Positions 23,358 through 27,921 of a stretch of 38,541 bases of DNA are shown here, piece by piece. Both the position numbers and the translations under genes were made by a program. Numbering within the stretch: the first letter of the stretch is position 1; each line of letters opens with the position of its first letter. The notes beneath the pieces are model-generated. The model saw only the letters and a program-made list of their open reading frames with translations, searched no databases and was not told where the DNA came from. Origin of the DNA: a bacterium (lineage in GTDB: Bacteria; Actinomycetota; Acidimicrobiia; Spongiisociales; JAENVV01); the NCBI GenBank assembly GCA_024641305.1, contig JAHEDI010000031.1:1-38541 (forward strand), in the 5' to 3' direction.

Positions 23358-23673
23358 CGCTTCGGAACAGTTTGGTGAACTGGAGTTGGGCACCGATCAG
23401 GTCGGTCGGGAGGTCCTTTTCGGTGAAGATGTGCCGGTACGTGTACACGTCGATCTCGACTCCTCGCAGGTCCATCCAGGCCCGCACGGCATCGCCCCAT
23501 CGTTCTTCGAGGAGGGCCTGGCGAACCTGCTCGGCTCCAACCTCTCCCAGTTCACCCGCGTTCGTCTGGGCGACCAATTCGATCGCCAGGACCCGGTGCA
23601 GCGTTTCGATATCTTCGGCGAGGTACACGTCGGGCGGGTCGTTGGCAACCACGGCGTAGGCGACCCCCGACAT
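23338..23673 (-). CDS. 111-residue middle protein of methyltransferase cassette
   Basis: The start ATG shares one base with the methyltransferase stop (TGATG), giving tight translational coupling. The product is acidic, mostly alpha-helical (IETLHRVLAIELVAQT, EQVRQALLEERWGDAVRAW) with a beta end (DVYTYRHIFTEKDL). It has no catalytic motif that I recognise and could be a controller, specificity or inhibitor subunit. The order methyltransferase, small helical protein, 350-residue protein seems to be a unit. Confidence 0.75.
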   Translation of the reverse strand: MSGVAYAVVANDPPDVYLAEDIETLHRVLAIELVAQTNAGELGEVGAEQVRQALLEERWGDAVRAWMDLRGVEIDVYTYRHIFTEKDLPTDLIGAQLQFTKLFRSDARAQN

Positions 23674-25235
23674 CAGTCGGTTTCGGCAGGAGGCAGAAGG
23701 TCAAAGCCCTTTTCGATATCGTCGTCCGACCAGAACCCGGGCAAGGGCACGTCGGTTCCCTGGGCGTAGGCCCGCAACCGGGCGACTCCGGTCGGGTCGA
23801 ACATTTCGATGGCATCGAACACGCTCCACGGACCGACCGCATGAAGCGCTTTATCACCAGGGCTGTTGGCCTTGGGCAGGTTTGACGTGACGATAAGCAG
23901 CTTGGCGGATGGTTCCTTGGCTTTGAGCACGTGAGCCCGACCGAGCGTCTTCCACAGGGTGTCGGTTCGGATCAATCCCGGCCGGACGGTGGTGAAAGCG
24001 CCCGACACGTCCACATAGAAGAGTTGTTCGCCCGGTTCGTCCTCAACGAGAAAGTTGAACTGCACACCTGCCTTGGGGAGCTTTACGTCTTCCTTGATGA
24101 TCTTGAAGCCGGCCTGCTCGAGCACCGCCTGGGCAAGATCCTGGGCCTTCTTGCCCTCCCGCGTGGCCCGCTCCTGAAAGTGTTCGGCTCGATCCTCGTG
24201 GGTTTCAAACAAATCGATCGGGAGCGGTTCGTTGTCGATCGGCATAAATGCCCGACCGGCAGGTCTGCGATGTTTGGTCGCTTCGTATCGTTCAGACGCA
24301 ATCTTGACGTAGTCCTCGTCAAGATCGAAGCCGACCGAACGACGTCCGCTCCGCATCGCCGCCACCATCGTCGTTCCCGACCCCATGAATGGGTCGAGTA
24401 CCAGATCATTCTCGTACGTGTACAACTCGATGAGTCGGCGGGGCAGTTCCACCGGGAAGGGCGCCGGATGATGAACCCTCCGGGCGCTTTCCGGGTCGAT
24501 CCGCCAAACGTCGAGCGTGGCCTCCATGAACTCGTCGGTCGAAAGCGTGTTCTCGTGCGGGTACCCCTCGGTTTCGCGTTGCTTGGCGCTCCGGGCCCGA
24601 TCAAAACGCCCTTTCGAAGCCACGATGACCCGTTCGGTGATGTCGCGCAACACCGGGTTGGCGGCCTTGCGGAACGAACCCCACGCCACCGATCCTGTGG
24701 CCCCGTCAGCCTTGTGCCAGATAATTTCACCCCGCAGCAGCAGGCCGAGGTCATCCTGGAGGATCTTTATGACATCGGCCGACAAGCTCCGATACGGCTT
24801 GCGACCAAGGTTGGCGACGTTGACAGCGATGCGACCGCCTGGTTCGAGAACTCGTTTACATTCCGCGAACACGTCCTTGAGCATTTCGAGGTATTCGAAG
24901 TAGGAGGTGGGAATCTGGGGCGTCGGGCCGTGTCCGCCGTCAGCGCCGAGCACGGCTTGTTCGTATTCTTTGCCGACGAAATACGGCGGGGAGGTAACGA
25001 CCAATGCCACCGACTTGTCGGGGAGGATGTCCATATGTCGCGAGTCGCCATGCACACAAGGAGGATCCGGAAGGATGAGCGTGGCAGGAGCGGGTCCTAG
25101 CTCGTCGTCATCGGAAACATCCGGCGGCGTGAAGCGGGCGTAGAACGCCGAAGCATTGTGGTTCTCTCGTTTGCCCACCCCAAACGCCGACGTTTCCGTC
25201 GCGCGCCGAACCTCGATATCGCTCTCATCAACCAT
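23673..25235 (-). CDS. DNA methyltransferase (N4-cytosine/N6-adenine, beta-type motif order) with C-terminal extension
   Basis: This 520-residue enzyme transfers methyl groups from S-adenosylmethionine to DNA. Motif IV TSPPY is at 81-85 and motif I DPFMGSGTT at 281-289, the order of beta-type enzymes; SPPY favours N4-cytosine but does not prove it. The part from 345 to about 485 is an added domain (DLAQAVLEQAGFKII, VQFNFLVEDE, FYVDVSGAF, DTLWKTLGRAHVL, KLLIVTSNLP) whose predicted alpha-beta-beta-beta-alpha-beta order looks like a PD-(D/E)XK nuclease fold lacking the Lys (D409-V-S). ATG 25235 has TAACCT six bases upstream, so the cassette is probably transcribed leaderless. First gene of a three-gene unit. 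Confidence 0.9.
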   Translation of the reverse strand: MVDESDIEVRRATETSAFGVGKRENHNASAFYARFTPPDVSDDDELGPAPATLILPDPPCVHGDSRHMDILPDKSVALVVTSPPYFVGKEYEQAVLGADGGHGPTPQIPTSYFEYLEMLKDVFAECKRVLEPGGRIAVNVANLGRKPYRSLSADVIKILQDDLGLLLRGEIIWHKADGATGSVAWGSFRKAANPVLRDITERVIVASKGRFDRARSAKQRETEGYPHENTLSTDEFMEATLDVWRIDPESARRVHHPAPFPVELPRRLIELYTYENDLVLDPFMGSGTTMVAAMRSGRRSVGFDLDEDYVKIASERYEATKHRRPAGRAFMPIDNEPLPIDLFETHEDRAEHFQERATREGKKAQDLAQAVLEQAGFKIIKEDVKLPKAGVQFNFLVEDEPGEQLFYVDVSGAFTTVRPGLIRTDTLWKTLGRAHVLKAKEPSAKLLIVTSNLPKANSPGDKALHAVGPWSVFDAIEMFDPTGVARLRAYAQGTDVPLPGFWSDDDIEKGFDLLPPAETD

Positions 25236-26291: not shown

Positions 26292-26468
26292 CTACGGAAA
26301 CACCGAGCGGATGGCGAGGATGAGACCGATGACGATCATGGGCACGCCGACGATGGCGCCGACGACGGTAAGGCTGATGATTACTCCCGCGATCATAAGG
26401 ATGAAGCCAATGACCAGCATGACCAAATGCCCGGCCAGTTTGAATGGCAGCGCCAGAAGTTTGCTCAT
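26292..26468 (-). CDS. 58-residue membrane protein, last gene of RHH/DUF4097 operon
   Basis: The frame reads MSKLLALPFKLAGHLVMLVI, then a second hydrophobic stretch (VVGAIVGVPMIVIGLILAI) ending RSVFP. It is two hydrophobic helices joined by a short Gly-rich turn, with a basic N-terminus. Its ATG overlaps the upstream DUF4097 stop by four bases (ATGA), and it is too well formed to be accidental. I know no function. It may anchor or serve as a partner of the DUF4097 protein. Confidence 0.75.
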   Translation of the reverse strand: MSKLLALPFKLAGHLVMLVIGFILMIAGVIISLTVVGAIVGVPMIVIGLILAIRSVFP

Positions 26469-27226
26469 CCTCTGGTTCCGATCTTGATATCACCCGACAC
26501 CGATTTACAGGTGATGTCGACATGTTTACGTTCCCCCTCGAAGGGGCTACCTCCTTCGGGAACTCGGCAGTTACCCGAGCGACTGAACAGGTCCACGTCG
26601 AGGATCCGCCCGCGCGGCACCGTTACGGAGACGTTGCCGGACATCGTCTTGGAACTGAAGCGTGACCCATCAAACTGGACGACCTTCACATCCCCTGAGA
26701 CCGACTTCGTGATCAAATCGTGCGAGGCGATCTGGATGTCGATGTCACCCGATACCGTCGTCACGGTGGAGTCGCCTTCGGCTCGTTCGACGGTCACGTC
26801 GCCAGACGCGCTGGCGACCGAGAGCCGCCCCGTGACCTTGCCTATATTGGCGTCGCCGCTGGCCGTCTTTAGAGAAACATCGCCGTCGACCTGGCTTGCC
26901 CGGATGTCGCCCGAGGCGAGACGGACGTCGAGTTCACCGATCCGTTCGACGTCGACGTCGACCGAAGCGCCTGCCATGTCCAAACGAGTAGACGAAGGAA
27001 CGATGAGATCGACCTGGTGACTTCCGCTCGCAATGCCGCGCCCCTCGAACCGGACGGTAATCGTGCTTCCGACCTGGGCGATTTCGAATTCAGACGATCG
27101 ACGTCCGGTAATCATGACTTCGACAAGATCAACATCCCCGGTCTGCACCGATAGGCGGCCGGCTGGAAAGCTGACCGCTATCTGCGAACGACCAATGACT
27201 TCGAATACTTCGCGACGATCACTCAT
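26465..27226 (-). CDS. DUF4097 family beta-strand repeat protein
   Basis: This 253-residue protein is built of short degenerate beta repeats: IRASQVDGDVSLKTASGDAN, GRLSVASASGDVTVERAEGD and VSGDIDIQIASHDLITKSVS, with SGD recurring at roughly 20-residue steps. This is the right-handed beta-helix-like pattern of DUF4097, a family often linked to envelope-stress loci, role unproven. No signal peptide or membrane helix is evident, so here it should be cytoplasmic unless the following 58-residue membrane protein recruits it. It is coupled to both neighbours by 4-base overlaps (ATGA). Confidence 0.9.
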   Translation of the reverse strand: MSDRREVFEVIGRSQIAVSFPAGRLSVQTGDVDLVEVMITGRRSSEFEIAQVGSTITVRFEGRGIASGSHQVDLIVPSSTRLDMAGASVDVDVERIGELDVRLASGDIRASQVDGDVSLKTASGDANIGKVTGRLSVASASGDVTVERAEGDSTVTTVSGDIDIQIASHDLITKSVSGDVKVVQFDGSRFSSKTMSGNVSVTVPRGRILDVDLFSRSGNCRVPEGGSPFEGERKHVDITCKSVSGDIKIGTRG

Positions 27227-27669
27227 GTTTCGATCCTGGTGCGCATCCGACCTGAACCGCTCGACGTCTTCCGAAAAGCCTTCGAAGACAAGTTCTTGAC
27301 AACCCAGGCGTTGACGGAGTCGCCCGACTCGCCTGCCTGGCTTTCGATGATCTCTTTGAGCGTGTCGGGTAGCCGCAGCGTGAGGCGGGCTTCGTAGTCA
27401 CCGGCACTGAAACTGACGCCTTCTGGCTGACGAATCTGAATGGTCGGGTCACCGTCCTGAATGACCACGGATACCTCGTAGTCGGGAAGTTGGGCGGATA
27501 CCTCGGTGGCGGCTTGCTGGCCGAGTTCCATGGCGACCTGGCGAATGGCTGGCTCCAATGCCGAAATCACCGCACTTGCCAGGGCGGCGATTTCGGGGTC
27601 ATTACCTGCGAGAACGAGTTGGTTGGTAAGTGATGCTTCGACGGAAGCGACCGCAGCTTCGATATCCAT
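27223..27669 (-). CDS. Ribbon-helix-helix (HicB/Arc-like) DNA-binding protein
   Basis: The C-terminal part (about residues 93-131) reads EARLTLRLPDTLKEIIESQA, GESGDSVNAWVVKNLSSK: a beta-strand, a helix, a turn and a second helix with the SVNAWVV core, the MetJ/Arc ribbon-helix-helix fold. The N-terminal 90 residues are a separate helical region followed by beta text (YEVSVVIQDGDPTIQIRQPE). It probably autoregulates the operon by binding the tandem 11-bp repeats upstream. No toxin such as HicA accompanies it. Its start is one base after the 42-residue gene's stop; its own stop overlaps the DUF4097 start. Confidence 0.85.
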   Translation of the reverse strand: MDIEAAVASVEASLTNQLVLAGNDPEIAALASAVISALEPAIRQVAMELGQQAATEVSAQLPDYEVSVVIQDGDPTIQIRQPEGVSFSAGDYEARLTLRLPDTLKEIIESQAGESGDSVNAWVVKNLSSKAFRKTSSGSGRMRTRIET

Positions 27670-27670
27670 G

Positions 27671-27799
27671 TCAGTGATTCTTCCTGGTGGTTTGGGCCCG
27701 CCGGACGGCGAAACGGCTGGGGGCAGTGAGATGACGATTGATGTCGGCCATACGTGCTTCGTGAAGTCCGCTTGCCAGTTTGAGATTCGTATTGATCAT
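27671..27799 (-). CDS. 42-residue basic peptide, first gene of RHH/DUF4097 operon
   Basis: It reads MINTNLKLASGLHEARMADI and ends RRAQTTRKNH: strongly basic at the C-terminus with no hydrophobic stretch. GGAGGG lies six bases before the ATG, a strong ribosome-binding site, and the stop is one base from the next start. The peptide is too short for a family call; it could bind nucleic acid, act as a leader peptide or work as a small regulator. Confidence 0.65.
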   Translation of the reverse strand: MINTNLKLASGLHEARMADINRHLTAPSRFAVRRAQTTRKNH

Positions 27800-27812
27800 G
27801 GTACACCCTCCT

Positions 27813-27833: not shown

Positions 27834-27863
27834 TGATGTCACAATGATGTCATAATGATGTCA
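27834..27863. repeat. Three tandem 11-bp repeats of TGATGTCA, likely RHH operator
   Basis: TGATGTCA occurs at 27834-27841, 27845-27852 and 27856-27863, exactly 11 bases apart, so the copies lie on one face of the DNA helix. Read leftward, the region also contains two TTGACA hexamers (27864-27859 and 27872-27867), candidate -35 elements. RHH proteins commonly bind such short phased repeats; bound protein would cover the promoter. Confidence 0.65.
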
Positions 27864-27921
27864 ACTTGTCAAGACCCAATTACGGATTCTTGAAAACCCG
27901 CACGGTTAGGGGCCAAATCGC

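Follow-up and report, generated by a model that had tools for sequence, protein, structure and literature searches.

The window analysed here (the whole stretch of DNA, 38,541 nucleotides in length) makes up a single contig of an assembly of 3.4 Mb, the named relatives of which are Acidimicrobiia MAGs. A compact operon of four genes encodes a basic micro-protein, a putative repressor of the ribbon-helix-helix (RHH) type, a DUF4097 (Toastrack) protein and a small membrane protein (Table 1). A single base (27670) separates the micro-ORF from the RHH gene, and 4-base overlaps join the RHH gene to the DUF4097 gene (27223–27226) and the latter to the gene for the membrane protein (26465–26468). All coordinates of this four-frame layout agree with those of the sequence-only reading, which had taken the genes for a co-translated unit. 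The unit is real: RHH and DUF4097 form a fixed pair, and the overlap of RHH stop and DUF4097 start recurs exactly in 56 of 57 related loci. The neighbours of the operon code for a zinc-type dehydrogenase and an acyltransferase. Nearby, a 520-aa ORF (23673–25235, minus strand) carries the DNA methyltransferase-type motif DPFMGSGTT.

Table 1. Features of the operon and its control region (positions in the window).
Feature	Position	Strand	Remarks
Operator, three TGACATCA boxes with an exact 11-bp period	27834–27863	−	TGATGTCA on the plus strand at 27834–27841, 27845–27852 and 27856–27863
Promoter: TTGACA (27872–27867), 17 bp, CATCAT (27849–27844)	27844–27872	−	Consensus match; operator boxes within
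AGGAGG ribosome-binding site of the micro-ORF	27807–27812	−	Read from the sequence
Micro-protein, 42 aa, basic	27671–27799	−	Opens the operon; conserved in operon and regulon
RHH protein (putative repressor), 148 aa	27223–27669	−	N-terminal helical hairpin and beta-hairpin, C-terminal RHH
DUF4097/Toastrack protein, 253 aa	26465–27226	−	Soluble all-beta solenoid (predicted)
Two-helix membrane protein, 58 aa	26292–26468	−	Accessory gene, two genera

Profile matches and predicted-structure matches place the 148-aa protein in the RHH superfamily of DNA-binding proteins. Its match to the HicB Pfam family is weak (4e-4, 20.7 bits against a cut-off of 21), as are its matches to TacA1 and Arc, and a distant paralog exceeds the HicB cut-off with 27.8 bits. 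A profile built from 58 relatives hits AtaR, KacA, Arc and CopG, all of them RHH proteins. The C-terminus of the AlphaFold model fits AtaR and Arc to about 1 Å or better over some 40 residues, and model helices 102–115 and 119–131 superpose on AtaR at 0.7 Å over 39 residues. The RHH strand reads ARLTLRLP, and residues R95, T97, R99 and N120 are invariant. The N-terminal part is modelled as two helices and a beta-hairpin, and a structure search of the PDB returned no match for this domain. The protein is present in 58 of the 99 genomes of the order; a phage collection gave no RHH match.

The DUF4097 protein matches PF13349 far above the cut-off (E-value of 1.1e-16, 61.5 bits against 22.9). Its predicted fold is a right-handed beta-solenoid (pLDDT 94.7) that matches the solved Toastrack-type structures 3pet, 4qrk and 4opw with E-values down to 3e-7. 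We saw neither a signal peptide nor a transmembrane helix in the DUF4097 protein of the operon. A beta-solenoid partner stands beside RHH in all 57 related operons, and the complete DUF4097 genes in loci devoid of RHH (L074 and L077–L082, three further cases being truncated or masked) encode secreted lipoproteins or membrane-anchored proteins. Thus, it is the soluble Toastrack that accompanies RHH.

The operator boxes at the window operon form two exact pairs, against 0.10 expected with two mismatches allowed, and are the sole exact pairs in that genome. The same layout lies upstream of nearly all homologous operons. Among 78 operator sites, the best-scoring promoter has an exact TTGACA in 64 and CATCAT in 59. 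Of the 58 genomes with RHH, 44 contain exact box pairs, as against 2 of the 41 that lack it (Fisher 2e-13, with phylogenetic clustering). One of these two exceptions (G002) is 68% complete and the other (G023) reads N upstream of DUF4097. A reversed control pattern had zero matches across all 99 genomes. Furthermore, the identity of RHH residue 97 follows the box across the phylum: threonine or serine goes with TGAYRTCA and asparagine with TGGYRCCA (72:2 against 1:10, a statistic that is not independent evidence since the groups are phylogenetically clustered). Such covariation of strand and operator would be expected if the RHH protein contacts its own operator. A factor other than RHH could read the box; this reading is partly answered because the box co-occurs with RHH and covaries with its strand.

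We also identified exact operator sites away from the operon. Among the 22 such places listed, the next gene is an MFS gene in 16, an ABC ATPase gene in 4 and a lone micro-ORF in 2, in a list that runs through genome G082 and covers the sites of about six further genomes in part. The exporter targets begin 12–234 nt behind the operator. The MFS targets are homologous to one another, with 45–88% identity to the own-genome copy over long matches (at L099 and L101 the alignment covers the first part of the gene only), and so are the ABC targets (66–71%). The window's own genome has a second operator site (L112), one mismatch from the pattern, in which the boxes accompany a TTGACA-N17-CATCAT promoter before this same MFS exporter gene. 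An ABC-2 permease gene follows the ABC ATPase gene at L103, and in distant relatives (L061 and L062) and in Streptomyces the RHH, DUF4097 and ABC genes lie in one operon. The MFS target scores above the cut-off for MFS_1 (3.6e-32) and under the cut-offs for both TIGR00900 (4.4e-62) and Mef(A) (1e-40); it is a DHA3-type, Mef-related protein that we do not identify as Mef.

Some of the exporter loci have further features. At L095, L098, L099 and L105 (family f8) the MFS gene is divergent from a gene for a PHP-domain DNA polymerase-like protein (DnaE2-like, by eye), and at L095 and L105 near-palindromic boxes of the GAACN4GTTCG type, similar to LexA sites, precede the DnaE2-like gene. In the window's genus (L083, L085, L086 and L112), a P-type cation ATPase-like gene diverges from the MFS exporter gene out of the same intergenic region and might respond to the operator as well. 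At L100 (genus g7), the stretch that separates the micro-ORF from the MFS gene contains a strong GC hairpin (CTCCTCCGGCCACGGTGGCCGGAGGAG), a possible attenuator.

Since copies of the RHH-type operator at the operon promoter also lie ahead of exporter genes of the MFS and ABC types elsewhere in these genomes, the output of the system would be an efflux regulon. The sequence-only reading had proposed a small envelope-linked regulatory unit. This description is too vague and its emphasis is probably misplaced, given the recurrence of the operator before exporter genes.

In 54 of 58 operons RHH is preceded by a short basic ORF that follows a ribosome-binding site, and the four loci without it belong to family f5. 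In genus g7 of this family a micro-ORF with the same operator is found ahead of the gene for the MFS exporter instead. The micro-proteins have 24–57 residues, a median net charge of +4, the pattern M-L-W-Y-N-N-P-E...I..HE.R and arginine-rich ends. Between the window and G003, the micro-ORF has 20.5 synonymous changes over 30.8 sites and 9.5 non-synonymous changes over 95.2 sites (omega of 0.07). A ratio could be defined for 16 close pairs, which are not independent of one another; omega was 0.51 or less in 15 of them and 1.11 in one. Most comparisons thus show purifying selection on the micro-ORF, and the 58-aa ORF gave omega values of 0.11–0.40; both short frames called by the sequence-only reading are therefore under selection.

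The micro-ORF also occurs in other arrangements. Two genomes of genus g6 carry a second, stand-alone copy (L089 and L094) composed of operator, Shine-Dalgarno sequence, 35 codons, stop, a GC hairpin resembling a terminator and a T-rich run, with no gene behind. G092 (L047) has tandem micro-ORFs of 40 and 34 aa upstream of RHH that overlap each other by 4 bases, and a few more distant genomes (L129 and L143) have one behind the operator too. Common descent of all the micro-proteins is likely but not proven because, with leave-one-family-out profiles, about half of them exceed the 5% level set by shuffled peptides (none in f4 and only one of three in f7) and similarity between families is weak. 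Searches of Pfam and NCBIfam gave no significant match for the window micro-protein or for seven relatives, and the family is probably new. We tentatively suggest, as one possibility, that it represents trans-acting regulatory micro-proteins that join the RHH-Toastrack repressor in drug sensing and in switching the efflux regulon. The stand-alone copies offer a natural experiment on the role of this conserved micro-protein, which routine gene prediction may miss.

The membrane protein has a narrower distribution. Its gene takes this place in just two genera, that of the window and g6; in other genera different genes follow DUF4097, often uridine-kinase-like by our own reading. It is thus a local addition, an accessory gene, and recruitment to the membrane by the 58-aa peptide would be at most a feature of two genera. 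Hence, the four-gene order described from the window is kept in part across homologous loci: RHH and the micro-gene are retained, whereas the 58-aa gene is missing from most.

We consider it likely that the operon is an autoregulated RHH-Toastrack repressor switch for efflux genes with a co-regulated micro-protein, an interpretation drawn from comparative sequence data. RHH dimers would bind the promoter at TGAYRTCA boxes that follow one another by one turn of the helix and thereby silence the operon that encodes them, with repression as the presumed sign of control. Elsewhere in the genome, they would also shut off the genes for DHA3-type MFS exporters and, in some relatives, for an ABC-2 exporter. 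Toastrack, translationally coupled to RHH, most probably serves as a cytoplasmic partner of RHH and senses or relays the inducing stress, which may be drugs or envelope stress, and would relieve or tune the repression by RHH. The co-regulated micro-protein probably acts in trans on the RHH-Toastrack pair or at the envelope, and the 58-aa peptide of the window's genus and one other is perhaps a membrane tether.

A possible, though rather unlikely, alternative is an envelope-stress unit akin to the PSP and Lia systems, in which Toastrack builds a sensing complex under the membrane, held by the 58-aa tether, and signals to RHH. Toastrack proteins may, according to one proposal, assemble signalling complexes beneath the membrane, with a coupling to transcription and transport (Ravi et al., 2024, PMC11237479), the two-helix peptide is under selection, and the Listeria lltR operon, with its PadR-DUF1700-DUF4097 order, offers a loose parallel (PMC6624303). 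However, the 58-aa gene is missing from most of the homologous loci, the DUF4097 protein lacks a membrane segment and the operator points to exporters. Genes for PspA, PspC, LiaI/LiaF-TM and LiaRS were absent from the operon neighbourhood, and none were recognised in the operons of the relatives. Such a unit is compatible with the repressor switch for efflux genes, of which it could be the sensing half.

Less probable still, and in our view unlikely, is that the micro-ORF encodes a leader peptide on which drug-dependent ribosome stalling controls downstream translation or transcription. Resistance genes with stalling leaders are known. The position of the micro-ORF just after the promoter would suit a leader, as would its arginine-rich ends, the kinship of the MFS target with Mef exporters and the placement before the MFS gene, rather than RHH, in genus g7. 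Purifying selection alone does not separate a leader from a trans-acting peptide. However, the stand-alone copies have no downstream gene to control, most MFS promoters lack a micro-ORF, and pairing at the RHH start is not above that of shuffled sequence (median z of −0.34). On this last result we also rejected RNA attenuation by pairing at the RHH start.

That the micro-protein is an exported signal or antimicrobial peptide, with the MFS and ABC pumps as its exporters, is very improbable. The shared operator and the small size and basic charge of the peptide fit this idea, but no leader or cleavage motif was seen, the pumps are of the drug-exporter rather than the peptide-exporter type, and linkage to the repressor operon is far commoner than linkage to a pump. 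A HicB-type toxin-antitoxin pair, suggested by the weak HicB match and by database names, can be ruled out, as the sequence-only reading had suggested: no gene for HicA or another toxin was seen in this operon or in its 57 counterparts among the relatives, the HicB score is below the cut-off, the partner is invariably a beta-solenoid and the operator recurs at exporter genes.

The repressor switch for efflux genes has elements in common with several known systems. RHH repressors of the Arc, CopG and omega types bind arrays of short boxes on one face of the DNA inside promoters. The window's protein has the same fold, and its boxes are likewise arrayed within the promoter, but it differs in its extra N-terminal domain, for which the PDB holds no match, and in its exporter regulon. 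LiaG and LiaX belong to the same Toastrack fold family by weak matches; the operon's DUF4097 protein lies far below their curated cut-offs and has neither a surrounding Lia operon nor a membrane anchor. In Listeria, a DUF4097 gene forms part of the PadR operon lltR, and an antibiotic pump is under the control of a second PadR repressor, lftR (PMC6624303). Like lltR, the window operon combines a small repressor with a DUF4097 gene and, like lftR, which responds to a natural product, it would place an efflux pump under the repressor. However, the repressors are PadR there and RHH here, the Listeria DUF4097 is a predicted exoprotein and no micro-protein is reported in the accessible part of the source. 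A Streptomyces antibiotic cluster also has DUF4097 genes, one of them adjoining drug-resistance ABC genes (PMC9866976).

The closest parallel is an actinobacterial operon of Toastrack, an ABC exporter and an RHH factor, already mentioned in the study that named Toastrack (Ravi et al., 2024, PMC11237479). RHH-Toastrack-ABC operons are thus known; the unlinked regulon, the operator code and the micro-protein, which we did not find described in the open-access literature, are apparently new. Both systems have a homologous RHH protein with an N-terminal helical domain, an adjacent DUF4097 gene, an exporter as output and upstream operator boxes. They differ in that the exporter genes here lie apart from the operon and are tied to it by a common operator, and in the box itself, TGAYRTCA here and TGGYRCCA there. 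The 4-base RHH-DUF4097 overlap, the micro-ORF in first position and the extra membrane peptide in two genera also set the present operon apart. On Streptomyces plasmids (L148–L150), the RHH gene lies by DUF4097 and ABC exporter genes and its product carries the RefSeq name 'toxin-antitoxin system HicB family antitoxin', which is probably a misnomer. The antitoxin name would be misleading for the RHH proteins of such pairs in general, and the common but unexplained pair of 'HicB family antitoxin' and DUF4097 gains a concrete, testable job: the control of exporters via a readable operator code.
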